Made by a program: the position numbers and the translations under genes
Notes under the pieces: model-generated
Seen by the model: only the letters and a program-made list of their open reading frames with translations
What the model was told of the DNA's origin: nothing
The model's database searches: none
In this document: positions 1,067 to 62,933 of the stretch, piece by piece
Numbering within the stretch: position 1 is the first letter of the stretch
How the letters are laid out: every line of letters starts with the position of its first letter
Assembly (NCBI RefSeq): GCF_900142535.1
Contig: NZ_FRBE01000011.1
Coordinates: forward strand, 1 to 64,000
Source: Fibrobacter sp. UWEL
GTDB lineage: Bacteria > Fibrobacterota > Fibrobacteria > Fibrobacterales > Fibrobacteraceae
Direction: 5' to 3'
Length of the DNA stretch: 64,000 nucleotides

Positions 1067-4000
1067 ATGCGACACAATGTATGGGTTGTTTTATATCTAT
1101 TGATTTTTGCGGCTTTCGCTCAGGCGAAGCTGACTATTCATATTCAAAGTCCTTGGCGTGATGATCCTTCGAAAGAGGGATATTTCTTGCATATGTTGGG
1201 TGGTGCCGGTGGCGGTTACAACCCTAGCTTTGACGAAACTTCTGCAACTCGCATGACGGATGAAGGGGATGGCTGGTTTAGCTATACCTGGGATAAGAAT
1301 GTGTCTGATTTCCAGAGCTGGGAATCTTTCAATATCAAGATTTACCCGAATACTGCTGACGGTAATTTCAACAACAATAACGGAGCTGCCTGGAAAGTTG
1401 CCGGCGACATGAATGTGGGCGACATCTTCGGGACGGATGTAGAAGTTTGGCTTTACACCAACACCACGGATATGACCTACGAGAAGAGTTTTGTTGCTCC
1501 TGGCTCCAAGATGGTGTGGTTCAAGAGTCCCTGGGGTAAGAGAGCTTTGCCCTTGATGGTTTTTGGCGGCGATTCTATTCTGATGAGATTTGCGCAGGAT
1601 GATGAATCTATGTGCGGATGGTTCTACGGCGCTGTTTCTCCTGCTGCGATCAAGGCTAATCCTGCGATGACAGCACACTTCATGCGTAACCGTACGCCTT
1701 ACATGTCCTTGCCCACTTCCGGGGTCATTGAGTTGGGCGATGCTTTGTCTGCTGCGGATACGATTTATATTGACGGAACCGTCAACACTCTAGCTCCTGC
1801 ATACCAGATGGGTGAACTGGGTGAATGTTTTGATTCTACTCGTGTTCTCCATATTTATCATCCTTGGAGGACCAACTCTACATTCAAGGATAGCCTGGTT
1901 TATATTTCTATTGGGAACAACATCCTGAACAATCCTACCGCCACTCAAAGGGACGTGTATTATCCTTACTGGTTTAACTATAAGTTCGATGCGGCCACGG
2001 TGGGTTCCACCAACTGGGCTTCCACTATGGCACAGTTCAATATTTACCGCCGCCAGAATGAATGGCCCCAGGTGACTTTCTTTAATGAGATGTCTCGCCC
2101 CCTGGCATCATCGCTATTCCCGACGGGAGTGTATGAGACGTGGCTTTATACGACGACTAGTGGAAATTACGAACTCCTGTTCAGCCCGCTGGAACCGAAG
2201 ACCATTCGCTTGATGAGCCCGTGGGACAATATGTCTCCCATGATGATCGTGGATGGGGATACGGTTCGTATGGGACCAATTACAGCCAACATCTTGGATA
2301 CCACTCAGAGTGATACTTGTGGCTGGTATCAGGGAACGTACTTTAAGCACACGGATGATTGGTCTGTTCAGTTTAGGCAGTCTTTCGGTACAGAATTCTA
2401 CAGTCTGGAAGGCTTGATGGGCGAAGATGGTGGATTTGGTACGCCTATTTCCCTGGATTCCATGGTGGCGCTCCATGACACGGTGTGGGTGTATCCTTAC
2501 CCGCTTTCTTCCAGCGCGCCGAGGTTCAAGGAAGTATATCCGGAACGTCTGGGAATTTGCCCCACCATGAAGATTTCTGCCATGCTTCTAGACTGGGCGG
2601 GCGAATCCTACGCTGACAATATTGATATTGACTTCGGTGGTATTTATGGGGGTAACGCCTACACTACCGTGGAACACAATGGTCAGGAATACAAGACTTG
2701 CGGCGGCCATGTGCTGGGCATGGTGGAAGAATACCTGAGCAAGGATGGCTTGCCGGTGCGTGTGGACTCTACCTTGTTCCCCTGGGATCAGTGCTCTGCT
2801 GGTCGTGAGGTGGATAAATGGTTTGTTCCGGAAGTTCTTGCTACTGGTCCCGATGGCCGCGAGTATACCAACGCCACCTGTCGCGATATCGACTTGAAGC
2901 TGGATGCGGAAGGATTCTGGCTTGCGGATGTGACGGAATCTCCCAATGGTTGTAATGACCCCACCAATCCTGGCTTCTATCCTCTGGACGATTTCGAATA
3001 CCTGGATTCCGCAAAGACTATTAAGAATCCCAAGTTTGACTGGGATGTTCAGGGCTGTAAGCACAACTACAGTTTCTCCATGAAGATCACGGCCCAGTTC
3101 AAATATATCAAGGGTCAGTATTTTGAATTCCGTGGGGACGATGACGTCTGGGTATTCATCAATAACCGTCTGGTGGTGGACATTGGTGGCTGTCATAGCC
3201 CTGTGGAAGGTGCAGTGGATTTGGATACTCTGGGTCTTACCGAAGGTACGGAATATCCGTTCCATATCTTCTTCTCGGAACGTAACGCTACGGGTTCCAA
3301 CTTCAAGATGCGTACGTCTATTAACCTGCAGACTCAGAGAACTTACTATTCCGAAGAGGTGAAGACGTCTGATGGCACCATCTCGTACAACTTGATGCAG
3401 CTGCTGGTGGATGAATCCTTGAGCTGCGATGTGTCCAGCGTGACCAAGGTGGAAAAGAAGGAGGCTCAGTCCGTATTCCTGCTGATTGGCGGTAACCTGC
3501 CGAAGGATGGCAAGACTCTTGATCCGGGCCTGAATTATGGCGGCATCCTGATTAACGAAAATATGGCTGGCTTTACCATTGATACGACTGCGATTGTCCG
3601 CTCTCGTTCTCTGGCTTCGGGCTCTTACGCCCTGGTTTGCTATCTGGCATCTGACTTGAGCCAGTACCAGGTGATTCCTTTCACGGTGCCTGAATATCCT
3701 CTGCCGGATATTGGCTTTGTGGATATTTTCAATCCTGCAGATTCCTTCGTGGAACTGGATCCTACGGGACGCACCCTGAGGGGGGACGTTATTGGTGTGA
3801 ATCCGAAAAACGATACGCTGCTTGCTCATGTGACTTATCCTGATGGTAAGCCGCTGGCGGTTGCTGTTCTATATGTGGGTCAGCCTTGCGGTGATTGCGT
3901 TATTGACCTGAACTTGATTTCTGCTGATTCCATCAGCTTCCTGAGTAAGGATGGCCAGCAGGTTACTTCCATCACGACGGATTCTCTGGGATACGCATAT

Positions 4001-8734: not shown

Positions 8735-10840
8735 ATGGGCGTGTTAAAATACTTCTTCATTAGTTTGGTGTTTTGTGGAAGTCTTTGGGCCATGCCTGCC
8801 CTGGATCGTGCATTTGTATTGAATCAGCCGGATGGTAGTTCTTTACGGGTCCGCTCCGTAGGTAATGAGGTCTTTAATTTTAAGGTAACCGCGGACGGCT
8901 ACGTAGTGGCCCGCGACAGTCTGGGATTTTTTTCGTACCTAGGGGAGGATGGCTCCAATTCGGGAGTTCATGCCCATGAAAGCGAAAATCGTACCGCCCA
9001 GGAACTAGAATTCCTGAGTTCACTCAACAAAGATGCCGTTCTGAATTTGCTGAACCAGCAAAAAACGGCTCGCACTTATGAAAGTATCCATAAGGCAGAG
9101 GGTAGCTTTGAATCTGTGGATTCAAACACGCCTAGCCCCAGATATATGCCGAAGGCTAAGGGCGTTCTCAATAGCGGGGAGGCTAAGGCTCTCGTAATTC
9201 TGGTGCAGTTCAGCGATATCAAGTTCTCGTCCAGCGATCCGAAATCCCAGTTTGAGAAATACCTCAACGCAGAGGGATATAGTGACAACGGGAATATTGG
9301 AAGCGTCAGGGATTACTTTAAGGATAATTCCTCTGGAAAGTTTATTCCCAACTTCGATGTGGTAGGCCCCATTACTCTTTCGGGAAGTGCCTACAAGACT
9401 TATGGCGAACATTCCAGATATGCTCAGGCTGGTGCAGCTGTTGCCCTGATGGAAGCCCTTGACACTCTGGTGAACCGTAAGACCATTGATTTTACCCAGT
9501 ATGATAGCGATAAGGATGGCTACGTTGACTTTGTCCATATGATTTATGCGGGTCTTGGCTCCAATGACTCCGGGCAGGATTCTGCCATATGGCCTCACAT
9601 GTGGTACTTGTCCCTGGCCAATTATCAACTGACCTGGAGGTCGTCTGCTGGTAAGGCTGTCGCTTCATCGGGAAGTGGATTCCGGAAGACTTATACTTAC
9701 GTGGATAAATATGCGTGTTCCAATGAATTGGATGGAGCCCTCTGGTATGATTACAAGCAAAAACAGACTGTTGGCGTGGGAACCTTCGTTCATGAATTCA
9801 GCCATGTGATGGGCCTGGGGGATCATTATGCTACAGATGGTTCAAGTGTATTTACAGCGACCTATTGGGACGTAATGGATGCTGGCGCTTATAACTACGC
9901 AAGCCAGGGCGCAGGAATGGCGACCGCCCCTCCCTATTATTCCGCCTTTGAAAAGGAATATCTGGGCTGGTCCAAACCGGATCAAATCGTGGAAGGAGAC
10001 GGACTTGAGTTACTTCCTGTTCAGGAGAATAAGGCCGTCAAGGTGGTCAATCCGAAAAATACGGATGAGTTCTATGTGCTTGAATATCGAAACCGCTCCA
10101 AGTGGGATGTGGGTTTGCCTAATCACGGAATGTTGATTTGGCACATTGATTACGACAGCTTGACTTGGTACAATGCGAAAGTCAACACTTCCGAAAGACT
10201 TCACGTAGACGTGGTGGAAGCGGATGGGGTTGCTGACGAGTGGACTGTTACTGCCGACGTGTTCCCTGGAACTTCCTGGTCGAAGAGGTATAATTCCTTC
10301 AATAAGTTTGTGACCTGGGATGGCTCTGATTTGGATGTTTCCCTTTCTAATATTACGGAAGCCAATGATTATAGCAAGGTCACGTTCAATGTGAAATTCG
10401 GGGATTCCTACGAAGGACCTATTGTAAGTTCCTCTAGTGAAGAAATAGAGGTTGCCTCGTCCAGTAGCCAGGAGCCAGTGATTATTGAAAGTTCATCCAG
10501 TGAAATAGTTGTGGTTGAGCCCGTTGTGCAGTCCAGTAGTTCTGAACAGGTTCTGGAGAGCAGCTCCAGCGAAGTCATTGCAGAAGTCGGCAGCTCCGAT
10601 AGTGCGCTCCCTGTGCGTAATGGCGTGAGGGCTGGCGTCAAGATTTCCCGCGCTAATGGCGTTCTGACTATTTCCGGCCTGCCGCAGGGAAACAAGGTCC
10701 TTCGGGTATTTTCCTTGAATGGTAACCTGCTGATGTCCCAGCCGGTAACGGGCGGCACGATTACGCTGGATAAGGCCCGTACCTTCGGGAATATTCCTGT
10801 TGTCGTCAAGGTGGATTCCTTTGTCCAGATGCGTTTTTAA
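8735..10840 (+). CDS. Secreted M6-family (immune inhibitor A-like) metalloprotease
   Basis: 701 residues with a signal peptide (hydrophobic residues 5-15, cleavage near SLWA-MPAL). The N-terminal propeptide carries the M6 pattern VLNQPDGSSLRVRSVGNE and DGYVVARDS. The catalytic zinc site is HEFSHVMGLGDHY (His ~353, Glu ~354, His ~357) inside VGTFVHEFSH. Calcium-type motifs such as DSDKDGYVDF lie before it. Residues ~565-630 are a poly-Ser/acidic linker, and the last ~70 residues (VLRVFSLNGNLLMSQP) resemble a C-terminal sorting domain of type IX-like secretion. The substrate is unknown. ATG 8735 is chosen because a signal peptide follows at once; TATTTT at 8722-8727 lies 7 bases before it and no Shine-Dalgarno is seen, so the message may be leaderless. 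Confidence 0.88.
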   Translation: MGVLKYFFISLVFCGSLWAMPALDRAFVLNQPDGSSLRVRSVGNEVFNFKVTADGYVVARDSLGFFSYLGEDGSNSGVHAHESENRTAQELEFLSSLNKDAVLNLLNQQKTARTYESIHKAEGSFESVDSNTPSPRYMPKAKGVLNSGEAKALVILVQFSDIKFSSSDPKSQFEKYLNAEGYSDNGNIGSVRDYFKDNSSGKFIPNFDVVGPITLSGSAYKTYGEHSRYAQAGAAVALMEALDTLVNRKTIDFTQYDSDKDGYVDFVHMIYAGLGSNDSGQDSAIWPHMWYLSLANYQLTWRSSAGKAVASSGSGFRKTYTYVDKYACSNELDGALWYDYKQKQTVGVGTFVHEFSHVMGLGDHYATDGSSVFTATYWDVMDAGAYNYASQGAGMATAPPYYSAFEKEYLGWSKPDQIVEGDGLELLPVQENKAVKVVNPKNTDEFYVLEYRNRSKWDVGLPNHGMLIWHIDYDSLTWYNAKVNTSERLHVDVVEADGVADEWTVTADVFPGTSWSKRYNSFNKFVTWDGSDLDVSLSNITEANDYSKVTFNVKFGDSYEGPIVSSSSEEIEVASSSSQEPVIIESSSSEIVVVEPVVQSSSSEQVLESSSSEVIAEVGSSDSALPVRNGVRAGVKISRANGVLTISGLPQGNKVLRVFSLNGNLLMSQPVTGGTITLDKARTFGNIPVVVKVDSFVQMRF

Positions 10841-32065: not shown

Positions 32066-32821
32066 CTAAAATTTGCTTAAAAAAGCGGATAATTCTAGTT
32101 CGGATTGGAATGATTCCCATTGGTCTAGGGCGGTTTTCATGGTCATGACGTCAATTTGACCAGGGGCGTGGGCACATCCGATGGCTCCGTAGGTCAAATT
32201 CGCCCCTTCCTTCAGGGACCAGAGGCGGCTGGCCTTGCCCGTTTCGCCCATTCCGAAGGCGGCAAAAAGCTTGAATTTTTTGAAATTCTTCTTGATAAAC
32301 TTATACAGTCGACCGCAATCTTCGGTGTCGTTACTCATGGCGGCGATTTTCAAACCCGGAGCCTTGAAACGGAGAACGTCCTTGGCGAAGTTTTCCAGCT
32401 CGGAATCACTTGGAACCCGAGAGAAGTTATGTTCAGAAATCAATAACTGAACCTTGCGGCCTGCGGTTAATTTGTTCAAATTTTCGAACTGATGGAGGCA
32501 ATCGCGCTCCAGGTCGAGCCACTGGGGAACTACAGGTGCTTCCAGGATTTTTTTCCAGAGGTCCAGTCGTTCTATCTCGCGGGCATCGGGGAAGGTGCCG
32601 CCATCGCGCTTGAGGCGGATGGTGCCAATCTGCAACTTGCCGGGGGCAACTTTTTCAACTCTTGCGGAAAGTTCGGGCCACATCTTTTCGTCAAAGAAAT
32701 CGTAGCGGATTTCCAGGGAGGTGCAGGCGCCTAGATCCAGGTGGACCGGGTGCATGGAATCCTTTTCGGCAGCTTCCAGAATTTCGGGCCCGATGAGGCC
32801 TACGAGGTACTTTTCGTTCAT
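32066..32821 (-). CDS. aroD: 3-Dehydroquinate dehydratase, type I
   Basis: 251 residues. It dehydrates 3-dehydroquinate to 3-dehydroshikimate in the shikimate pathway. Type I hallmarks are seen: E37/R39/D41 (LEIRYD), the general acid-base His131 in SEHNF, the Schiff-base Lys158 in GLKIAAM, GMGETGKASR (190-199), and APGQ near residue 220. The order and length fit a TIM-barrel AroD. It is single, upstream of EIIA and in the same direction, but about 100 bases separate them. Confidence 0.9.
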   Translation of the reverse strand: MNEKYLVGLIGPEILEAAEKDSMHPVHLDLGACTSLEIRYDFFDEKMWPELSARVEKVAPGKLQIGTIRLKRDGGTFPDAREIERLDLWKKILEAPVVPQWLDLERDCLHQFENLNKLTAGRKVQLLISEHNFSRVPSDSELENFAKDVLRFKAPGLKIAAMSNDTEDCGRLYKFIKKNFKKFKLFAAFGMGETGKASRLWSLKEGANLTYGAIGCAHAPGQIDVMTMKTALDQWESFQSELELSAFLSKF

Positions 32822-32923
32822 GGAGACAAAGAAAAAAGAGTGAACTGTGACAAATTGCTTTGTGTTAGACAGGATGGAGATGTCCCTGCCTAGTGTGCAA
32901 TGATAGTAAAATTTCTTTTTTTA

Positions 32924-32952
32924 TTGACAAATGGTTCGCCGATTTTTACTAT
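32924..32952 (+). promoter_or_regulatory. Canonical sigma-70 promoter of the beta-helix operon
   Basis: TTGACA (32924-32929), 17-base spacer, TACTAT (32947-32952), about 33 bases before the GTG start. Confidence 0.8.
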
Positions 32953-32984
32953 TTCCCTTTGATTTTTGAGGGCTAGGAGGCGAA

Positions 32985-35900
32985 GTGAAAGAGATTTTCA
33001 CTTATCTTGTGTTGTGCGGTGTGTTGTCAGTAAGCGTTCTTGCTGCAAATTTCCCGTATTCAGAATGGAATCTTGCAAACTATAATGGTGCCTTTGCAAC
33101 GTTCAGTGATGGTCTAGTTTCTATTAATAATGGTGGATCTGATTATTGGAATGTTCAGCTAACGCGTAAGAATATTGAACTTCAATCTGGTAAAACATAT
33201 GAAGTGAAGTTTTTCTTGCAGGGCGTCAGTGCACGTCGTTATACAGAAATCCGTATTGGCAGAGATGGCTTCCCTTATGATGCATTTGCTGAATTTGGTG
33301 AAGTTGTTGCTACCGTGAACGGCCGTGAGGTTACCAAGACCTTTAGGATGAATTCTGGCAATGTAAGTAATGCTCGTTTGGAATTCAATTTTGGTAAGAG
33401 TGCCGGATCCGTCTATTTTTCGGACGTAAGTCTTAATTGTCTCGATTGTGGAAATACGGTTGTCACACCCAGTAAGCCTAGCACGGAACAAACAGAATCC
33501 GGTTATTTAGATTATGTTGTTGTTGCAAATACAATCGATTTTCGCGATAATTCCAAAGCCTTGGGCAATGTTGTCGGTGGGGATGTAGAATTAGGTGTTG
33601 AATCAAAAATTTACGGTGATGTAAGCGTTTCTGACAATTGTTTCTTGCGTGAGCGTGCTTACGTTGTTGGTGATTTGCGTTTCGCAACTTCGTGTACAGA
33701 GCAGAATGATGTCTATGCTGCGACAAAAATAAAGGCGGGTGTCCAAAAGCCTTCTGTTCAGTTGCCTGAGATTGTCCTGGGAACCACGCCAGTGTCTGTA
33801 AATCTTGACGGCTCTTTGCAGCTTGTTCCGGGTAACTATGGCGCATTTTATGCAAATACGCGTGCAAAGGTGCGCTTTTCTGCGGGAACATACTCTTTCC
33901 AGAACTTCTATACAGAACCGGATGCAGAAATCGCTTTTGACATGACCTCTGGTCCGATTTCCATTGCCGTTGCCGGTAATGTCAGGTTCGGTGATCGAAA
34001 TAAAATCTCCATTGTTGGAGGAAATCCAAGTGAAATAACTTGGAATGTCGCTGGTGAAACGGTTGATTTCGGTACTGATGGCTTGTATTTTGGTAAGGTT
34101 ATTGCTCCGAATGCATTTGTGCGTATCCCGTCTAGAACTCATTTGGTCGGTGGAGTCTATGCGAATAAGTTCTTGATGGAACCTCAGTCTACGGTATCGC
34201 AGGAGCCTCGTGCTGACGAAATTTCCCATAGCGAAGAACATTTTGGCCCGTTCTTTAACTCTGGTGTATACCGCTACAATTCTGTTGTTTCGACCCAAAC
34301 TTCCAATATTGAAATGTTTGTGTATGCAGATGATGTGAATGTGAAGGTGAATGGTGGCTCTTCCAAGCTGGTGGAACTTTCTTCTCCGAATCAGTCTGTC
34401 GTAGTGTCTCTTACTCGTGATATGATTTCTGGATTTCCGGTGGAGGCTTCCTATAGTAACTATGTCTTTGATTTCTCTAAGAGTTCTAACTATAGGGTTT
34501 ATTGGAATCCTCAAACTCTGTGCAAACAGGGCTGTGATGGCTCCTCTGCAACAACTGCGATTGGTGATTTTGAAACCGTTCTCTCCATCGCCAAATCTAC
34601 TGGTAGGGAAATCAATATGGCTGGTGGTACTTGGAATGCGGCTGACAACTACAAAGATGGCGTAGTTCCATGGATGGTAGGTTTTGAAATTGTCGGTAAT
34701 ACCACGGACCTTTGGGAATTGAATTCTGAAAATGATTTGCCAATGATTAACCTGGGAAAAACTTCTCATATTCAGATAGAAGGAGAATCTCCCCGCAGCC
34801 TTAAGGGGCTTCGCGTGACCGATGGCATCAACTCTGAAAATGGCGGCGCCTTGAATACAGGTAATCAGAAAATATCGTTGAAGAATGTGCTGATTTCTAA
34901 TTCTGGGTCTGCAAAAAATGGCGGTGCTATTTTTTCCATGGATACACTTAATCTTGAAAATGTTCGCTTCGCGAACAACTATGCCGCAGAAAATGGTGGT
35001 GCTGTATTTTCAACAGGAAAGGTTAGCGCGATCAATACGCTATTCCTTGGTAATTCAGCGGCAAAGAATGGTGGTGCAATTTCTGTGTATGCTGCTGATG
35101 CATATATTGCAAATGCCATTTTCTATAGCAATGGTGCTGATGTTAATGGTGGTGCTCTTTACAATTCTGGTGCAACACTGAATCTCTGGAATGCGACATT
35201 CTTTGCAAATAAGGCTAGCGCTGCAAATGGTGCTATTGGTGGTGCTGCGAATGGTGTGATTGGAAACTCTATTTTCTGGAAGAATACTGCTGGTTGCAAC
35301 ACTGCGGAATGTGGTGGAGAAGTCGTTTCCGGTTATTCTGCAGTGAGCTCTTCCTTCACGAAGGCTTATCCTGGTACAAATAACTTCGCTGGTGATCCGA
35401 AGTTCATTGATGAAAGTAAACCTGCTGGTGAAAATATGTATATGGGTTATGATGCTGGCATTAATTTAAGCAAAGAGTCCGTTCTTTTAAAAGCTGGCAT
35501 ACAAAGTACAAGTATGCTGAGGTTTGATATTTTGAATATGAATCGCCCTAACGATGAAATTGCTTTGGGAGCCTACGCCTATGCAAATGCATTAAGCAAT
35601 GCATTTTTTGGCGTGTTGGATGATGATGGAAATGTGGTTGAAAAGATGCCTGCAATACCTTTGATTACCGCGGTTTCTGGAGCGTATTACAGAGAGTATA
35701 TCGCTTCGACTCCTTACTCGCGAGTTTGGAAGGTTTTTGTACAAAAACATAAAAAAACGAATAAGGAGAGGGCAAGGGTAAAGTTGTGGGTGAAAAATAG
35801 GGATGGGGAAAAAATAGATGAGAAACCTATTGAATTTGATGTTTATAAAAATGGTGAAGAACATGGCCAATATGTTTTTCAAACTATGACAAAAAATGCA

Positions 35901-36011
35901 GGCAAACCGGTATTATTTACGAAACGCCCTCAGGACGCGGGAAATTTTGATGAGGCAATAGTGATATACATGAGTTCTGTTTCGGATTATTTTTATTATG
36001 AAGCTCAATAA
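32985..36011 (+). CDS. Exported CBM-like / right-handed beta-helix surface protein
   Basis: 1008 residues. A signal peptide (~1-21, SVLA-ANFP) leads to a CBM4/9-like jelly roll (~22-155; YWNVQLTRKNIELQSGKTYE is the family's ligand-face signature). Residues ~180-400 hold a stacked-strand region (IYGDVSVSDNCFLRERAYVV). From ~600 to ~830 there is a parallel beta-helix with repeated NGGA(I/L/V) turns (NGGALNT, NGGAIFS, NGGAVFS, NGGAISV, NGGALYN), as in polymorphic outer-membrane proteins. The GTG start 32985 is fixed by AGGAGG at 32975-32980. It opens an AT-rich operon with the metzincin and FGE-like genes. It is likely a surface adhesin or polysaccharide-binding protein (inference). Confidence 0.8.
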   Translation: MKEIFTYLVLCGVLSVSVLAANFPYSEWNLANYNGAFATFSDGLVSINNGGSDYWNVQLTRKNIELQSGKTYEVKFFLQGVSARRYTEIRIGRDGFPYDAFAEFGEVVATVNGREVTKTFRMNSGNVSNARLEFNFGKSAGSVYFSDVSLNCLDCGNTVVTPSKPSTEQTESGYLDYVVVANTIDFRDNSKALGNVVGGDVELGVESKIYGDVSVSDNCFLRERAYVVGDLRFATSCTEQNDVYAATKIKAGVQKPSVQLPEIVLGTTPVSVNLDGSLQLVPGNYGAFYANTRAKVRFSAGTYSFQNFYTEPDAEIAFDMTSGPISIAVAGNVRFGDRNKISIVGGNPSEITWNVAGETVDFGTDGLYFGKVIAPNAFVRIPSRTHLVGGVYANKFLMEPQSTVSQEPRADEISHSEEHFGPFFNSGVYRYNSVVSTQTSNIEMFVYADDVNVKVNGGSSKLVELSSPNQSVVVSLTRDMISGFPVEASYSNYVFDFSKSSNYRVYWNPQTLCKQGCDGSSATTAIGDFETVLSIAKSTGREINMAGGTWNAADNYKDGVVPWMVGFEIVGNTTDLWELNSENDLPMINLGKTSHIQIEGESPRSLKGLRVTDGINSENGGALNTGNQKISLKNVLISNSGSAKNGGAIFSMDTLNLENVRFANNYAAENGGAVFSTGKVSAINTLFLGNSAAKNGGAISVYAADAYIANAIFYSNGADVNGGALYNSGATLNLWNATFFANKASAANGAIGGAANGVIGNSIFWKNTAGCNTAECGGEVVSGYSAVSSSFTKAYPGTNNFAGDPKFIDESKPAGENMYMGYDAGINLSKESVLLKAGIQSTSMLRFDILNMNRPNDEIALGAYAYANALSNAFFGVLDDDGNVVEKMPAIPLITAVSGAYYREYIASTPYSRVWKVFVQKHKKTNKERARVKLWVKNRDGEKIDEKPIEFDVYKNGEEHGQYVFQTMTKNAGKPVLFTKRPQDAGNFDEAIVIYMSSVSDYFYYEAQ

Positions 36012-36024
36012 AAAAAGGAAAAGC

Positions 36025-37836
36025 ATGCTGAGATTTTTTTTGTTTTTCCTATGTTTATGGGGCGTCTTTGCGTGTGATGATGTTGAACGTGGCGATGCGT
36101 ATGCGGGAAGGAATTCTTTGCAGTGTCACCAAGAAAATAAGGTTGTTAGTTGTACTGAAGTTAATCCTCTAGTCGGACCTGTTGGAGGAGTTTCTAATGA
36201 CAATGCCATTTTTGGAAACGGAGAAATTGAAGAAATTGATTGGGAAACAACGGTATCATGGTTTCTTAAGTCGTATGATCATCTTTATGGTTTTGATGTG
36301 GACCCTTTAGCATTTTATCCAGATAATGTTGAAAGGGGACAAGATGTTTATATGTCTGTAAAACGTGGAGAGCTTGCCAAGTTAAGAATACGAGTAGATC
36401 CTAAGATAAAAGACGATTTTCATCTTCATCAAATTGATGAAAAAAAACAGATTATCTCTTCAGATGTTTATCAGGGAGGGGACATTTGTGTTGCGGACAT
36501 TTGTCTTAGAGAAATTGAACTGTCTAAAGGTGATTATGCTGTGTACTATGGGAATGTTGATAAAAAGAGATATGTCCATGTTATTGAATTTTCAAAAGAT
36601 GAAAAAAATATTGATTTCGTGCAGTATGGTGACGCAGATAACTCAAATTGTTTTTTTGGAGAAGAAAATGGCTGTTACAATAGGGATAACGTAGAGGAAA
36701 GTTTTAACGAAGTGTTCTCGCAGGCGGTAGTTGGAGGACGCTTTGTTGAGCGGAAACCATCAGATTTTAAACTCGATGATGTTTTGTATGTAGATTTGAC
36801 GGAACCAATGAATCTTAACGATTATTTATCGGACGTTGTTACGCAAATCGTTATGGAAAAAAATCCAGATATGAAAAGTAAATATGAAGTTTATCAAAAA
36901 TATATGGTACAACAAAGTGCAAAAATTGTGCAGCGTGATGAAAAAAAAGTAGAATTAAACGAATGTTATGACAAAAATTCGTCTAAATATGCTTGTGAGC
37001 CATTAGAAAGAAAGATTGTGTCGATGAACAGTGAAATTCAATCGTTGCGTAAAAAAATTGAAGCAGCACACTTGAGTTTTATGACTGTATCTCATATTGA
37101 TAACTGGAGCGTCAATGTGGTTTTGGGAATCAATGAGATGTCGATTGGATGGGATTTACCGTCAAATGCGTTGTCAGGAACTATTGTTTTGCAAAATTAT
37201 AGTGATTACAATAATGTATGTACAAAGTATTATAAATTGACTTATGATGAGGGGTGTCTGAATAAACGCTTTCCCATGTATTTGGTGAGTTCTGATCCCA
37301 ATATTCAACAAAAGCGTATTGAAGCTGAAATGGTTGATTTTGATAAGGAATCAAATTCTTTTTTGTTGAAATTGTACAATGTAGGAAGCGGTTCTGGCCA
37401 TTATCGCTATACTCTTGTTGCCGATGTCTATCCGATTGTTCCTGGTTTTCCATATGCTGTTGCATATGCAGCGCAGATTCCGGGTACTTTTGTAAATGGT
37501 TTCCCAAGAAAGGATGGGCCCTCTGCGGTTGTTGGAGGTCTTGTCTGGGGAGCCCATACTAGCGGGCAAAATTCGTACAATACTTTGAATCATGAAATCG
37601 CTCATACATATGGAATGTCCGATGCGTATATGTCTAATGACGATCCGTTTATCTATAAGTCAACAGAAGAAACGAATTTAATGAATTATGCTACTCCCAT
37701 AGGGCCCAAAATAGCATATAGACCTAAACAGGTTGTCTACACATCAAAAAATGAAAGAATTAAGAAAAATGGAAAATATGCTACAGAAAGTCAATGGTTA
37801 TGTATGCGAGATAGAACAAAGTGTGTGTATCAATAG
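36025..37836 (+). CDS. Lipoprotein metzincin-like metalloprotease
   Basis: 603 residues. The signal peptide MLRFFLFFLCLWGVFAC ends in a lipobox with Cys17. The zinc site is HEIAHTYGMSD (His523, Glu524, His527, Asp533), an HExxHxxGxx(H/D) metzincin signature, and LMNYA about 30 residues later fits the Met-turn. The long N-terminal half (~60-500) has no recognised domain and includes a Lys/Glu coiled coil near 310-350. ATG 36025 is supported by AAAGGA at 36014-36019; an in-frame ATG 35998 overlaps the upstream gene and lacks a ribosome site. Very AT-rich codon use (AAA, GAA, GAT, TTT) contrasts with flanking housekeeping genes. Substrate unknown, perhaps its operon partners. Confidence 0.8.
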   Translation: MLRFFLFFLCLWGVFACDDVERGDAYAGRNSLQCHQENKVVSCTEVNPLVGPVGGVSNDNAIFGNGEIEEIDWETTVSWFLKSYDHLYGFDVDPLAFYPDNVERGQDVYMSVKRGELAKLRIRVDPKIKDDFHLHQIDEKKQIISSDVYQGGDICVADICLREIELSKGDYAVYYGNVDKKRYVHVIEFSKDEKNIDFVQYGDADNSNCFFGEENGCYNRDNVEESFNEVFSQAVVGGRFVERKPSDFKLDDVLYVDLTEPMNLNDYLSDVVTQIVMEKNPDMKSKYEVYQKYMVQQSAKIVQRDEKKVELNECYDKNSSKYACEPLERKIVSMNSEIQSLRKKIEAAHLSFMTVSHIDNWSVNVVLGINEMSIGWDLPSNALSGTIVLQNYSDYNNVCTKYYKLTYDEGCLNKRFPMYLVSSDPNIQQKRIEAEMVDFDKESNSFLLKLYNVGSGSGHYRYTLVADVYPIVPGFPYAVAYAAQIPGTFVNGFPRKDGPSAVVGGLVWGAHTSGQNSYNTLNHEIAHTYGMSDAYMSNDDPFIYKSTEETNLMNYATPIGPKIAYRPKQVVYTSKNERIKKNGKYATESQWLCMRDRTKCVYQ

Positions 37837-37845
37837 GGGTTAAAA

Positions 37846-39279
37846 ATGTTCAGTCTCAGTATTAAAGTCACTTGCGTCTTGTTAATCGCTTTCAATGTTG
37901 CTCTTTCGGGCGAAAAAAAAACTTATGAGCTAGATGGTAGACCTTTTGTTTCTCAAAATAAAACGAACGGCCCTAAAGCGATTGTGTCTGTGTTGGATAA
38001 TCGCCAAATGACAAAGTCCTTGGATTCTCTTGTTTACTCACAGAACAAAGTTGAAATTGTTTTAGATAAGAGAGTTCAATGGATTGAATTAGAAAAAAAT
38101 AAAAATTATTCGATTTGTCTTGAAAAATCTTTTGGTGATGGACAGTGGAATGTAAAAAATATCTTATTTGAGAGGCAAGGAGATTGTGTATTGTTGCAGT
38201 CTGGTAGTTTTGTTAAATCTGCCGTCGTAAGGTACGATCGTTCATTAGAGGAGGTTGTTAATATTAACGTTTTGGTAGGGATGAAATATATAGATCTTTC
38301 ACAAAAAGAACATTTGTTGGGATACAATGGATCGGAAAAAAGGAAACAAAAAAAGGATGCGTCTTCCCGTGTTTTAAACATAGGCTTAAAGTATGCAGAA
38401 GGTGGTTATCTTGATTCTTTGCGATTTGAACGTATTCAGGAGGTTCTTGCTGTTGATGAGTACAAAGTGACGGAATGTGAGTTTGTCAATATGTTGTGGG
38501 ACTCTATTCCAAATCAATTGTTGCCTGATATATTTGCAAATCAAAATTATTGGATTTCAGTAAAAAAGGGAATGACAAAGGGGGCCTGTGACGCACATGA
38601 CTTCGCTGCAATACGGATTTCACCTTATTATGCATTGCTTTATGCAAATGAACGAAGTCGTCGTGATGGATTGGTTCCCGTATATAGCTTTGATTTCTCA
38701 AAAGATTGGCGCTCATTAAAATTTTTTGATGACGGACGATTTGGTATAAAACATGAGGTCTTTGCTTTGGATAATAGCGATGTTTCAGGATATGTTGTTG
38801 TTAGGGTGGATGAAAAAGCAAATGGCTATAGATTACCCTATTACGATGAATGGATGGCTTTGGCTCGTGGAGGACACGCGAATGCTGAATTCGTTTGGGG
38901 TAATGAAATAGACTCTTCTTTGGCTTTAGAATATGCATGGTTTGGTATTCAAGATTCTGAAGATCCTTTAAAAAAAATAAATCCGAAGAAACCTTATGAA
39001 AGAAAGTGGTTGAAGAATTCTTGCGGACGTTGGTTACAAAGCTCTCGTCCGGTAGGAAAGCTAAAACCGAATGATTTTGGACTTTACGATATTTCTGGGC
39101 TGGTTTGTGAAAGCGTGATGTTGCCTGGGAAAAGCATCTTTGACAATGAAGTTTTGACATGTAAAGGTGGGTTTATGTCGGATTCGTTAGGTGCATTGAA
39201 TCTTGGTGCGCATTGTGATTATAAAGTTTCAAATGATTTCATTTTTCGTGGCCTACGTTTAGTACGGAAATTGAATTGA
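37846..39279 (+). CDS. Exported FGE/SUMF1-like (formylglycine-enzyme fold) protein
   Basis: 477 residues. A signal peptide (~1-21) is followed by an unrecognised N-terminal half (~22-190). The C-terminal part follows the FGE-sulfatase fold: RFERIQEVLAVDEYKVTECE, YRLPYYDEWMALARGG, FVWGNEID, RPVGKLKPNDFGLYDISGLV, CKGGFM and FRGLRLVR. The clear FGE catalytic cysteine pair is not evident and no sulfatase is adjacent, so a binding or structural role is as likely as an enzymatic one. AGGGG precedes ATG 37846, nine bases after the metzincin stop. It shares the module's AT-rich composition. Confidence 0.78.
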   Translation: MFSLSIKVTCVLLIAFNVALSGEKKTYELDGRPFVSQNKTNGPKAIVSVLDNRQMTKSLDSLVYSQNKVEIVLDKRVQWIELEKNKNYSICLEKSFGDGQWNVKNILFERQGDCVLLQSGSFVKSAVVRYDRSLEEVVNINVLVGMKYIDLSQKEHLLGYNGSEKRKQKKDASSRVLNIGLKYAEGGYLDSLRFERIQEVLAVDEYKVTECEFVNMLWDSIPNQLLPDIFANQNYWISVKKGMTKGACDAHDFAAIRISPYYALLYANERSRRDGLVPVYSFDFSKDWRSLKFFDDGRFGIKHEVFALDNSDVSGYVVVRVDEKANGYRLPYYDEWMALARGGHANAEFVWGNEIDSSLALEYAWFGIQDSEDPLKKINPKKPYERKWLKNSCGRWLQSSRPVGKLKPNDFGLYDISGLVCESVMLPGKSIFDNEVLTCKGGFMSDSLGALNLGAHCDYKVSNDFIFRGLRLVRKLN

Positions 39280-39379
39280 AAAAAATATTCTTAATTATTG
39301 TACAATTTGCCTTTTTATGACGATATATGATGAGGAATGTTTCTACATTAACCGACGAACAAGATAAAGGATGCTATTT

Positions 39380-39961
39380 ATGGCAGATTGTAACGAAAAG
39401 AAAGAAGCTCAGAATCCGGACATGATCAAGAAGGCCGAAGAATATCTGGCCAATAACCGCCGCATTTTCCTGTGGGGCGGTGTGGATGACGAAAGTGCGG
39501 AACGCATCGTGAAGCAGCTTCTTTATCTGGATTCCTTGAACCACGACGATATTACTCTTTACATCAACAGCCCGGGCGGCGTCATTTCCAGCGGTCTTGC
39601 TATTTATGACTGCATGAACGCCATCCAGAGTGATGTGGTGACCGTTTGCTGTGGCCAGGCTGCCTCTATGGGCGCTGTGCTGTTGACTTCTGGTGCCAAG
39701 GGCAAGCGTTATGCATGGCCCAATGCCCGCATCATGATTCACCAGCCCTTGATTCACGGTGAAATTGTGGCTCCTGCCAGCGACATCCAGATTCAGGCCG
39801 AAGAAATGCTGCGTATCCGCGGTATCACCGGCAAGATCCTGGCTGAAACTTCCGGCCATACCATGGAAGAAATTGACCGCGACACTGAACGTGATAACTT
39901 TATGTCTGCAGAAGAAGCCAAGGCTTACGGCCTGGTGGACGTTGTAGAAAGCAAGCTGTAA
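39380..39961 (+). CDS. clpP: ATP-dependent Clp protease proteolytic subunit
   Basis: 193 residues. The serine protease triad is Ser96 (GQAASMGA), His121 (IHQP) and Asp172 (ERDNF). Oligomer hallmarks include YINSPGGVISSGLAIYD. It degrades proteins fed by Clp ATPases; no clpX/clpA is adjacent. ATG 39380 is set by AAAGG at 39366-39370; ATG 39371 is too close. Base composition returns to the genome norm here. It is followed one base later by ftsY, an unusual neighbour. Confidence 0.93.
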   Translation: MADCNEKKEAQNPDMIKKAEEYLANNRRIFLWGGVDDESAERIVKQLLYLDSLNHDDITLYINSPGGVISSGLAIYDCMNAIQSDVVTVCCGQAASMGAVLLTSGAKGKRYAWPNARIMIHQPLIHGEIVAPASDIQIQAEEMLRIRGITGKILAETSGHTMEEIDRDTERDNFMSAEEAKAYGLVDVVESKL

Positions 39962-59195: not shown

Positions 59196-60200
59196 ATGGC
59201 AGGCAAGGATGATGCTAACGAAAATCCCATTAAGGAATTTCACTTATTCGCTGGTATAGGTGGTGGCATTTATGGAGGAGAACTCCTTGGTCATAAATGT
59301 TGCGCTGGAGTTGAAATTAGTGAGTTTTGCCAAAAGGTCCTGAAGCAGCGTCAGAAAGATGGCTGGATGAATGAGTTTGAAATTTATGGTGATCTTCGTG
59401 CTTTAAATGGCAAGGACTATAAAGGAAAGTTCGATGTCCTGTGTGGTGGATTTCCATGTCAGGCCTTCAGCACTGCTGCGCATGGGAAAAATATTGCAGA
59501 GAAGAACCTTTGGGATGAAATGTTCAGATTTGTAAAGGAATCTAATGCTCCAATTGTCTTTGGCGAAAATGTGGTCTTGCGTGCAATTAGCAAGGCAAAG
59601 TCAGATTTAGAATCTGTTGGATACAAGGTTAAGTATTGTAGATTAAGTTGTTCTGATTTGGGAGCCGACCATCAAAGAAATCGTTTTTGGCTTTTGGCTG
59701 TCAAAGATGAGAATGCTTTTGAACGTTTGAAAAAACACATTCTGTCATTACCGGTTTTCAAGGGAAAGTACTGGAGTAAAAATCCAGATGCATTAGGTCA
59801 AGAAGTCATTGTCACGGATCGTCGAGAACAGTTGAAGGGTGTGGGAAATGCTCAGTCTCCGTTTGTTGCCGCATCTGCGTTTAGAGTTTTGGTAAATCGT
59901 CATATTGAAAACCGCAATTATACGGAAGTTGTATCTGACGAAGAAATCGCAAAGGTTTTTGAAATTCAGAAAACTTGGATTAAGGATACCTATGGTGAAG
60001 AAATGGGCTTGGTTCATACGCCGACAACGATGGCTAATTATTCTGCACCATCAATGATGAAACATCAGGGCTGTCGTAACTTCAAGAAAGTGTTTGAAAA
60101 GCCATCTCCGAAGAATGCTGAATATCTTATGGGTTTCCCGCTTGGTGCAAGTTCTCCTGAACCTCAGGGAAAGAACAATCTGAAAAAGTGGGGTGCGTAA
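59196..60200 (+). CDS. DNA (cytosine-5) methyltransferase of the R-M system
   Basis: 334 residues. C5-MTase motifs: I FHLFAGIGGG (~15-24), IV GGFPCQAFS with catalytic Cys88, VI GENVV (123-127), VIII ADHQRNRFW (158-165), X GVGNAQSPF (215-223). Between VIII and X there are only ~50 residues, too short for a normal recognition domain. Instead ~110 residues follow motif X, including AEYLMGFP (309-315), which looks like the RL-x-GFP of motif IX found after X. This fits phage-type C5-MTases. AGGAACGAG precedes the ATG. AT-rich; overlaps the next gene by one base. Confidence 0.9.
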   Translation: MAGKDDANENPIKEFHLFAGIGGGIYGGELLGHKCCAGVEISEFCQKVLKQRQKDGWMNEFEIYGDLRALNGKDYKGKFDVLCGGFPCQAFSTAAHGKNIAEKNLWDEMFRFVKESNAPIVFGENVVLRAISKAKSDLESVGYKVKYCRLSCSDLGADHQRNRFWLLAVKDENAFERLKKHILSLPVFKGKYWSKNPDALGQEVIVTDRREQLKGVGNAQSPFVAASAFRVLVNRHIENRNYTEVVSDEEIAKVFEIQKTWIKDTYGEEMGLVHTPTTMANYSAPSMMKHQGCRNFKKVFEKPSPKNAEYLMGFPLGASSPEPQGKNNLKKWGA

Positions 60201-61603
60201 TGACTGCTTATGAAATAGAGTCGCTACTTCAACGTCTTGGTGTTAGAGAAACTAAGGCTGAAACGTACCCTAATACATATAGCCTTGTTAGCGGAGCTAG
60301 TTTTCTAGCACAGCAAGTGAATAACCGTGATTCAGCATCGTGGAAAAAAGCTGAATATATAATACTGACAGATTCTCCTGCGTCTAATAGCATTTTAAAT
60401 GGTTGGAAACGTCTGACAGAAAGGGACCCATTACCTAGCGCAATTCAAAAATTGTGTGTTCCAACGGATGATGATTTGTTTGATGTGTATGACGCTCAAG
60501 GACAGTTTGTTAAAACATCATCTTTGAGAAATATTGTTAGGCACACTCCAGATATTATTGATGTGCTTAATAAACGAAATTCTTCTGCTTGCTCTCTTAC
60601 TCCCACCCAACTAATCTACTATGGTGTTCCTGGCTGCGGCAAGTCCAAGAAGATTACGGATTTGCTTGAGGCTGCAAAGTTGCATGGCGACATTACCGAT
60701 GAGGAAACTCAGGTTGCTCGCGTGGTGTTCCATCCGGAATACACCAATGCGGAATTTGTGGGGCAGGTGATGCCGATGGTCAAGCCCGCGGGCGGTGTAG
60801 ATTATCATTTTGCAGCAGGTCCTTTTACTCGCATTCTTGCTCGTGCTTATGCCAATCCTACTAAACCGTACTATTTGATTATTGAAGAAATCAACCGCGG
60901 AAATGCGGCTGCTATCTTCGGTGAAATTTTCCAGCTTTTGGACCGTCATAAAAAAGGTGAGTCTGATTCTGTAGGCGGCAATACATATACGGCGGGCTGG
61001 AGCAAATACTTTGTGGATCATGTGGACGTGAACGGAATAATTCGCAAGGAAATTTCAGACACGCAGTATGAATCGGACGCAGAAAAGCCGACCGTCAATT
61101 TCACTGCGAATACGGCAATTCGTCTCCCGCCAAATCTTTCCATCTACGCCACCATGAACACCAGCGACCAGAATGTGTTCACTTTGGATAACGCCTTTAA
61201 GCGTCGCTTTGATTCCGAACTCATCAGGAATTCCCTGGAAGGTGCCGAACATGATGCCCAGCGTGAAACGAAGATTGAAGGCACGGAAGTGACCTGGGGT
61301 AAATTCTGGAAAGCAATCAATGATTTGATTCTTGAAAAGCATTCTTCCATGACCAGCTCCGAAGACAAACGCCTTGGCGCCTATTTCATCGTGGGCGAAG
61401 AAAAGACTGCGGAAGATGGGACCACCTATCGCGAAATTTTGAAGAAACTCTTTGGCGAGAAGGTGCTGGAGTATCTTTGGGACGATGCTTTCAAATACAA
61501 GCGTAAGGAAGTGTTTAAGGAAGAATGCAAGTCTGTTGAATCGCTGATTGAAAAATTTACCAGCGGTGGTTTTCCTGCGGTGTTCAAAAATCTGGAATTC
61601 TAG
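60200..61603 (+). CDS. McrB-like AAA+ subunit of a LlaJI-type restriction enzyme
   Basis: 467 residues. N-terminal ~130 residues are unrecognised and likely bind DNA. The AAA+ domain has Walker A GVPGCGKS (142-149), Walker B LIIEEINRG (226-234), the McrB sensor ATMNTSDQ (317-324) and arginine finger region FKRRF (~333-337). It would translocate and activate the nuclease partner on unmethylated sites. Composition changes near base 60600: the N-terminal part is AT-rich like the methyltransferase, the AAA part is host-like. Stop and start (TAATG) overlap the methyltransferase. Confidence 0.9.
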   Translation: MTAYEIESLLQRLGVRETKAETYPNTYSLVSGASFLAQQVNNRDSASWKKAEYIILTDSPASNSILNGWKRLTERDPLPSAIQKLCVPTDDDLFDVYDAQGQFVKTSSLRNIVRHTPDIIDVLNKRNSSACSLTPTQLIYYGVPGCGKSKKITDLLEAAKLHGDITDEETQVARVVFHPEYTNAEFVGQVMPMVKPAGGVDYHFAAGPFTRILARAYANPTKPYYLIIEEINRGNAAAIFGEIFQLLDRHKKGESDSVGGNTYTAGWSKYFVDHVDVNGIIRKEISDTQYESDAEKPTVNFTANTAIRLPPNLSIYATMNTSDQNVFTLDNAFKRRFDSELIRNSLEGAEHDAQRETKIEGTEVTWGKFWKAINDLILEKHSSMTSSEDKRLGAYFIVGEEKTAEDGTTYREILKKLFGEKVLEYLWDDAFKYKRKEVFKEECKSVESLIEKFTSGGFPAVFKNLEF

Positions 61604-61613
61604 GAAAACGTAA

Positions 61614-62933
61614 ATGTCTGTCGGTTTCAAAAACTTTTGCATTTTGCAAAATGATTTGCAGGATGCAAATGAAGGATTCGTAGGAGTAAAGTTTGCGGAA
61701 GGTAAACCGCAAATCTATTTCCCCTACGGATGTTTTCAGAATTTTGAAATCGTATCCGATAACGCTCCTTCTGATGAAGAACTTCGCCAAGCATTCGCCA
61801 GCTTGATGAACGTTCTCTCGGATCAAAGCTTGATAAGCGACGCGGAGAATTCCAACTACGCTTCGTCTCTTGAATTTGAAGCCAAACTGGATTTTCCGTT
61901 CCAGGAATTTTTCTATGTCCTTGATTATTACTTGAACTTTGGCTTGTACAAGGAAACGGAAAAAATCTACAAGCAGGGCGTTCACGGAAAAGTCAATTGG
62001 AGCCGAACCATAAAGCATATCCGTCCGCAGGTTGTCGAAAGTGAGCGAGGCACGGAAATAGTTTATCTGAACTTGATCTCAAGTTGCAATTCTCAAAATG
62101 AAAATCAGCTTGTCTCTTTGATTCATGAATTCTGCGTGGCCCAGGCGCAAAGGCTGATTAGTCCGCTTTATGGCATCGATGCGGATGTTGAACCCACTCT
62201 TGATTTTGACTACGAACTTTTCTCTGCGGTACTCAACGAAAAATGTTCCAAGACGTTTAACGATCGCAAGCTACGGCTTTTCCATGCCATGCAAGTGATT
62301 GTAGAATACTTGCAAGGGAATGCGGTTGATGGCGCCTTAAGCGAGTATTGTTACGGTGTATCCAGTTTTGCCCCGGTCTGGGAAAGAATGCTGGACCGCA
62401 TCTTCGGCAACATTCTTGAATGTGAAAAGAAGAATTTCAATCCACATTGCGAATGGCGTCTCGCGGGCGGTACAAGAAATGCAGACGACCAGAAATTCGC
62501 CATGCGTCCAGATACCATCATGCGGCTTGGCGAAGAGCTCTTTGTAGTTGATGCGAAATTCTACACCAGGAACAATCTTCCCACGTCGAGTTCCATCAGC
62601 AAGCAAATCGTGTACGCGCAGTTTGTGGAGCAAAAGGGCTTCGCGAATCCCGACAAAATTTTCAACGTATTCCTGCTGCCGTATTGCTGTGACAGAGAAG
62701 ACGTCTCGCAGAACCCCGGCCACTATAAAATGAACTTCCTAGGGACCGCCCATGCCGACTGGGTTGACAATTCCAAACCTTACCACAAAATCATCGGTGT
62801 TCAACTAGACGTAAGATCCGTAATGCGAGATTACCGCCGAAACGACATCGCGCAATACAAATTAGCGGAAATCGTGAAAGAAGCTTTGTGTCAAAGGAAT
62901 AGTGATGATGTGTCAAAAAATGTGGTTATGTAA
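61614..62933 (+). CDS. LlaJI-family restriction endonuclease subunit (McrC-like)
   Basis: 439 residues. FPFQEFFYVLDYYLNFGLY and GKVNWSRTIKHIRPQV match the LlaJI restriction family (Pfam RE_LlaJI as recalled). The PD-(D/E)xK nuclease core is RPDTIM (Asp300) ... ELFVVDAKFY (Asp313, Lys315). It cuts DNA together with the McrB-like subunit, 10 bases upstream. With the methyltransferase it completes a type II, GTP-driven R-M system. A strong terminator follows. Confidence 0.88.
   Translation: MSVGFKNFCILQNDLQDANEGFVGVKFAEGKPQIYFPYGCFQNFEIVSDNAPSDEELRQAFASLMNVLSDQSLISDAENSNYASSLEFEAKLDFPFQEFFYVLDYYLNFGLYKETEKIYKQGVHGKVNWSRTIKHIRPQVVESERGTEIVYLNLISSCNSQNENQLVSLIHEFCVAQAQRLISPLYGIDADVEPTLDFDYELFSAVLNEKCSKTFNDRKLRLFHAMQVIVEYLQGNAVDGALSEYCYGVSSFAPVWERMLDRIFGNILECEKKNFNPHCEWRLAGGTRNADDQKFAMRPDTIMRLGEELFVVDAKFYTRNNLPTSSSISKQIVYAQFVEQKGFANPDKIFNVFLLPYCCDREDVSQNPGHYKMNFLGTAHADWVDNSKPYHKIIGVQLDVRSVMRDYRRNDIAQYKLAEIVKEALCQRNSDDVSKNVVM

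Follow-up and report, generated by a model that had tools for sequence, protein, structure and literature searches.

A polymorphic stem–metzincin–FGE surface module of the Fibrobacteraceae that may evolve like an effector–immunity system

We describe a three-gene operon of Fibrobacter sp. UWEL (assembly GCF_900142535.1, contig NZ_FRBE01000011.1) that encodes, in order, an exported stem protein, a lipoprotein metzincin and an exported FGE-fold protein. The window, that is the whole stretch of DNA analysed, comprises positions 1–64,000 of the forward strand of this contig. We judge it about an even chance that the operon is an allele of a Fibrobacteraceae surface module that is polymorphic and exchangeable and that evolves like an effector–immunity system. 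Such evolution is matched because the FGE gene often occurs without the metzincin gene, never the reverse, and because the pair is exchanged behind a conserved stem. A search of open-access text found no paper on a module of these three genes.

Architecture and base composition of the operon

The stem gene (gene 1; 32985..36011), which has homologues in other species, the metzincin gene (gene 2; 35998..37836) and the FGE gene (gene 3; 37846..39279) all lie on the + strand and encode proteins of 1008, 612 and 477 aa, respectively. Open reading frames were called mechanically and the starts are approximate (gene 2 might instead begin at a second ATG, at 36025), whilst lipoprotein and signal-peptide assignments were made by eye. 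Genes 1 and 2 have 14 nt in common and a gap of 9 nt separates genes 2 and 3, confirming the original prediction that the three genes overlap or abut. An AGGAGG ribosome-binding site, read directly at 32975..32980 (+), lies ahead of the GTG start of gene 1. Upstream of the operon is a promoter-like TTGACA-N17-TACTAT (32924..32952, +), matching the consensus at 10 of 12 positions. The promoter first described as canonical is present in this sense, but such sites are hardly enriched, with 22 in the region against 18.5 in shuffles (sd 4.1).

The operon lies in an insertion interval (32822..39370) between aroD (32066–32821, −) and clpP (39371–39961, +). Of the 30 species examined, at least 22 have nothing inserted between the two genes, which fits in part the earlier suggestion that the genes were acquired by transfer; base composition, however, shows no recent acquisition. 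The GC contents of genes 1, 2 and 3 (0.42, 0.36 and 0.37) are indeed lower than that of their surroundings (~0.50), as had been claimed of their A/T bias, but values of ~0.31–0.40 are found for metzincin and FGE genes in all genomes examined. Low GC is a trait of the whole module family and no sign of recent transfer here, and we rejected a recent transfer inferred from composition on this ground. Elsewhere in the window, positions 59196–62933 carry what we judge from the sequence to be a DNA cytosine methyltransferase gene, followed by genes for a McrB-like GTPase and a McrC-like protein; the cluster is likely to be a modification-dependent or LlaJI-type restriction system.

The stem protein and its C-terminal domain

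The gene 1 product consists of a signal peptide, a CBM_4_9-like domain (residues 47–138; Pfam E 5e-8), a DUF7305 match that falls under the cut-off (E 4e-5), POMP-type beta-helix repeats and a C-terminal domain (CTD). The repeats, which score just over the Pfam cut-off (20.8 against 20.6 bits), liken the stem to the chlamydial polymorphic membrane proteins. In contrast to the chlamydial POMP autotransporters, the stem ends in a predicted beta-sandwich and not in an autotransporter barrel, for which the C-terminus gave no Pfam match. The CTD spans 156 residues (35541..36008, +), and its structure model (pLDDT 85) is a beta-sandwich. Comparison of the fold returned no PDB match at E 0.001 and VIA-align Z scores of at most 4.0; there was no PDB sequence match, nor any match to a known toxin domain. 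We rejected the CTD as a type IX secretion (T9SS) tail, gene 1 having no TIGR04183 match in NCBIfam scans; this genome has 51 such matches (E 1e-3 or better), none of them on the contig of the window (C11). No export machinery was found beside the operon.

The CTD also occurs elsewhere, either as a stand-alone lipoprotein or fused behind an FGE. Six orphan FGEs carry the fusion, and a CTD precedes several further orphans. CTDs without a metzincin, whether lipoprotein or FGE-fused, are unexplained by a role purely as the tip of the stem; the CTD could be a component of the protective side, or else serve the FGE as a docking domain. A stand-alone CTD lipoprotein is encoded at 2913–3461 of locus L076, with others in L215, L217, L220 and L225, and in four loci a stand-alone CTD lies immediately 5' of an orphan FGE with the metzincin absent.

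The metzincin

A Pfam scan of the gene 2 protein gave no match. Weak matches to matrixin, reprolysin and M66 were obtained with its relatives (M10, M12 and M66 at E ~1e-3), and a metzincin profile run against PDB sequences gave a weak E of 0.02. The M66 model (PF10462) did not match the gene 2 protein at E up to 1, the best family member reaching 6.7e-4. The members are only 14–42% identical to the window copy, yet the zinc motif is kept in 26 of 26: the site HEIAHTYGMSD (HExxHxxGxxD; 37591..37623, +) corresponds to HExxHxxxxxD in every intact member, its glycine being replaced in two metzincins (G068 and G090), and the Met-turn NLM (37675..37683, +) to N-x-M, again in all 26. The lipobox cysteine, residue 26 (36073..36075, +), is present by eye in 25 of the 26.

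The AlphaFold model, made from 20 sequences, has a pLDDT of 80.5 and contains an Ig-like domain (residues ~87–200; 36256..36597, +), also indicated by VIA-align, a predicted coiled-coil arm (residues ~273–364; 36814..37089, +), which is shortened or absent in several relatives, and a zincin domain. The N-terminus of some 500 residues, thought at first to be unrecognised, does indeed lack a Pfam match, but it models as an Ig-like domain, a coiled coil and the N-terminal half of the zincin domain. Among the structural matches listed, StcE alone spans most of the model (residues 81–608, Z 7.0, rmsd 6.3, 262 aligned). The likeness to StcE and M66 extends to the presence of an Ig-like part, but with Z below 8 the match may reflect only a common arrangement. 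The third zinc ligand of M66 is His. The window metzincin differs in having Asp at this position, in its lack of a Pfam match and in its operon partners.

The StcE alignment, the weak M66 matches of some members and the feruloyl-esterase-like gene after three operons would all be consistent with a surface protease complex for host or food glycoproteins, either a StcE-like mucinase or a plant-protein protease, that is allelic by substrate and has the FGE as specificity subunit, chaperone or regulator. We consider this distinctly unlikely. Besides the low Z score of the model alignment, specialisation by substrate does not predict the orphan FGEs beside metzincin stubs or the CTD–FGE orphans that lack a metzincin. 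For the metzincin, PADLOC returned nothing but weak matches. A second gene for a lipoprotein resembling a metzincin, with the motif HExxHxxGxxH, lies 3' of two operons (L065, 13728–14963; L066, 5928–7130) and could represent a further member of a related family.

The FGE-fold protein

Gene 3 resembles the FGE-sulfatase family (PF03781) at 36.9 bits, above the gathering cut-off of 23.3. It differs from that family in lacking the catalytic cysteine pair of formylglycine-generating enzymes, the pattern of which, expected near the C-terminal GG motif, is absent from all 81 of the proteins in which that motif is recognisable, gene 3 included. Among solved structures the best match of the FGE profile is Treponema TvpA (2e-19), a DGR variable protein. 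Unlike TvpA, there is no evidence of retroelement diversification at the window locus, and this genome has two reverse transcriptase matches, both on contigs other than that of the window. The FGE is part of a large binding fold, and orphan FGEs could therefore serve in binding on their own account.

Distribution of the module

The metzincin profile found 17 intact genes in 80 genomes of the genus, and an eighteenth was confirmed in G090. At all 18 the FGE gene follows directly, and a stem with CTD lies ahead of 17, the exception being the second metzincin of G074. The same gene order recurs in G167, G166, G161, G139, G149 and G154, which by their group codes represent four further genera of the family, whilst among 168 genomes of the phylum no metzincin was found outside the family at E 1e-10. 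The genomes sampled are mostly fragmented assemblies, one per species, and several are incomplete. Conserved co-occurrence in other genomes, the check proposed with the original prediction, is thus found: the three genes occur together, in fixed order, in five genera.

The FGE is far from confined to the operon. Genus loci contain 108 full-length FGEs, of which 18 follow an intact metzincin and 4 a stub (counting L152, which was labelled by hand from a partial match); the other 86 are orphans, which were collected by iterative search and whose counts are lower bounds. No intact metzincin without an FGE was seen. In a divergent type of operon a BD-FAE-type esterase is the fourth gene, 3' of the FGE (L067, L068 and L069), and it is retained in L227 and L235 where the stem and metzincin are missing.

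Matched exchange behind a conserved stem

Over 16 operons, identities of the CTD, metzincin and FGE are strongly correlated (Mantel rho 0.84 for CTD–metzincin, 0.89 for CTD–FGE and 0.90 for metzincin–FGE; the permutations have a floor p of 0.002), and this co-variation of neighbouring genes partly reflects linkage. For the N-terminal half of the stem (13 operons), rho against CTD, metzincin and FGE is 0.03, 0.17 and 0.12. Pairs of modules illustrate the exchange directly. The window and G024 both have a module in the aroD–clpP site, with 88% identity in the N-terminal half of the stem and 24% in the CTD. At the DNA level the 5' part of the stem gene (33048..34638, +) is 83% identical to the G024 module, and beyond 34638 similarity is lost except for one 56-nt stretch. 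Similarly, G068 and G067, with flanks in common, are 92% identical in the stem and 35% in the CTD. The G026 and G010 modules are at different sites, since their outer flanks do not align. Their DNA is 93% identical over a stretch that begins ~250 nt before the stem gene and ends ~43 codons inside the metzincin gene, past which the metzincins are 41% and the FGEs 55% identical. From this point of divergence it follows that metzincin plus FGE is the most strictly matched unit.

Some modules at different genomic sites, then, have ~250 nt of upstream DNA in common, and this, with the low GC throughout, is what might be expected of surface genes co-travelling as a hitch-hiking cassette with no functional link, the FGE arrays being an unrelated family. 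Conserved synteny already disfavours such an explanation, and the fixed order in five genera, the overlapping or abutting genes, the matched swapping and the interspersion of operon and orphan FGEs in one tree make it very improbable.

The G010 operon lies between two copies of a 64-nt direct repeat (98%; L014, ~3844–3907 and 10714–10777), similar DNA also lies upstream of the G026 operon, and the G092 copy is flanked by an 80-nt direct repeat that is 80% identical. A mobile unit bounded by repeats was nevertheless rejected: no flanking repeat was found at the window module or at the ten others tested, and those of G010 and G092 are probably dispersed repeats. The swapped operon of G024 is separated from clpP by two open reading frames that resemble an IS3-type transposase (L067, 4120–5198).

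Orphan FGEs and metzincin stubs

Many orphan FGEs are arranged in arrays. In the FGE tree, a quick tree with no mixture model and with long-branch warnings, they are interspersed with operon FGEs, with 11 label changes of which at least 7 are forced by starred branches. Among the 65 orphans from genomes with at least four copies, only 2 have their nearest relative within the same genome. Orphan FGEs are under purifying selection, the median dN/dS being 0.21 over 62 pairs of close orphans that share sequences and are thus non-independent. A large gene resembling a CoA-dehydratase activase (VGVDVGSTTVK) adjoins FGE genes or arrays in L058, L061, L062, L063, L079, L214 and L223, from seven genomes (G004, G006, G014, G061, G074, G092 and G098), and its surroundings may be a hot spot of orphan FGEs.

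Stubs of the metzincin 3' end adjoin FGE genes in loci L070, L071, L151, L152, L260, L271 (twice) and L273, the genomes concerned being G079, G062, G022 (contig 30), G004 (contig 7), the UR.bin43 record, G166 (contig 37, twice) and G164. One of the two stub-side FGEs on G166 contig 37 is cut by the contig end, and that of G164 (L273) is itself split. Weak metzincin-like matches 5' of other orphan FGEs were left out of the stub count, because they are possibly signal peptides and a control also matched.

Whole genes may also have been lost. At a site that G082 and G028 share with G022, the stem and metzincin are absent from the former two, the FGE and esterase are ~99% identical, and the join falls close to the beginning of the stem gene and at the end of the metzincin gene. 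From the position of the join, G082 and G028 are likely to have lost the two genes by deletion, the alternative being an insertion in G022. G013, compared with G018, has neither stem nor metzincin, and the FGE that it keeps is a hybrid of two FGEs. These cases may also have run the other way, from an ancestral orphan FGE that acquired the stem and metzincin later, and this applies above all to G082 and G028.

The FGE arrays look like a repertoire, and a variable adhesin or receptor is an alternative that we regard as unlikely, if less so than the glycoprotein protease. In this case the FGEs would be lectin-like binding modules of an alterable repertoire, held by the stem and CTD and remodelled or released by the metzincin, with hosts, phages, protists or substrates selecting for diversity. 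The TvpA match, the CBM-like domain and beta-helix repeats of the stem, and the fusion of the CTD to six orphan FGEs and its position ahead of several others are what such an adhesin might show. A maturation protease would be expected wherever its client occurs, yet the FGE is found mostly without the metzincin, and never the reverse. The stubs beside intact FGEs, too, suggest that the FGE outlives the protease. Nor did the self-processing adhesin of the original prediction gain any positive evidence; the same distribution argues against metzincin-dependent maturation of the FGE.

Discussion

The reading that we prefer is a polymorphic effector–immunity-like system in which the metzincin is the effector, the FGE its cognate protector and the stem with its CTD the display arm; the case for it seems to us evenly balanced. 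The exported beta-helix stem would display the CTD as a variable beta-sandwich tip. The lipoprotein metzincin would be the active agent, cleaving a protein at the surface or in the periplasm of adjacent cells that are probably relatives, whilst the exported FGE would block it in the envelope of the producer, and an orphan FGE would protect cells that lack the effector. We infer which way the losses went, that the metzincin is an active and toxic protease, that the FGE neutralises it, that the CTD docks and that delivery takes place. The interbacterial role first proposed agrees with the evolutionary pattern of matched swapping and orphan partners, as a pattern only. That the module is a previously undescribed weapon of the Fibrobacteraceae for interbacterial competition or kin discrimination, with a lipidated metzincin as effector, the C-type-lectin-like FGE of the orphan arrays as immunity protein and a stem whose exchangeable tip brings the protease to neighbours, we hold to be possible, somewhat short of an even chance.

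The module resembles polymorphic toxin–immunity systems such as CDI and Rhs, in which a conserved N-terminal delivery-type protein is followed by an exchanged, variable 3' cassette and a downstream partner gene that is often orphan (PMC3482391), as in the 18 of 18 metzincins with an FGE and the 86 orphans found here. Peptidase toxins are known in polymorphic toxin systems (PMC3482391). The candidate effector differs, however, in being a separate lipoprotein gene and not the C-terminus of the stem; the stem is neither RHS nor filamentous haemagglutinin, and no known toxin or immunity family was found. In Vibrio cholerae, members of the T6SS orphan immunity arrays do not cluster by genome, and displaced effectors leave their 3' ends behind (PMC5361080). 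The orphan FGE arrays, which likewise do not cluster by genome, and the metzincin 3' stubs recall this arrangement, but no link to a T6SS was seen, the effector would be a lipoprotein metzincin and its partner an exported FGE-fold protein, and the direction of loss is here one that we infer. A third parallel is myxobacterial SitBAI, which has a polymorphic lipoprotein effector, a cognate partner gene and an accessory gene (PMC5562445). Those SitA toxins that have been described act as nucleases and pass between cells by outer membrane exchange (PMC5562445), whereas the Fibrobacter candidate is a metzincin.

If the effector–immunity reading is true, fibre-degrading gut bacteria would have a protease-based system of recognition or competition, the FGE fold would be an addition to the immunity folds known so far, and the exported metzincin one to the effectors. 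The orphan FGE arrays offer a ready set of allele pairs for the study of specificity. Even if antagonism proves wrong, a co-inherited protease–FGE pair exchanged behind a conserved stem represents an unexplained source of surface diversity in bacteria of the rumen and hindgut.
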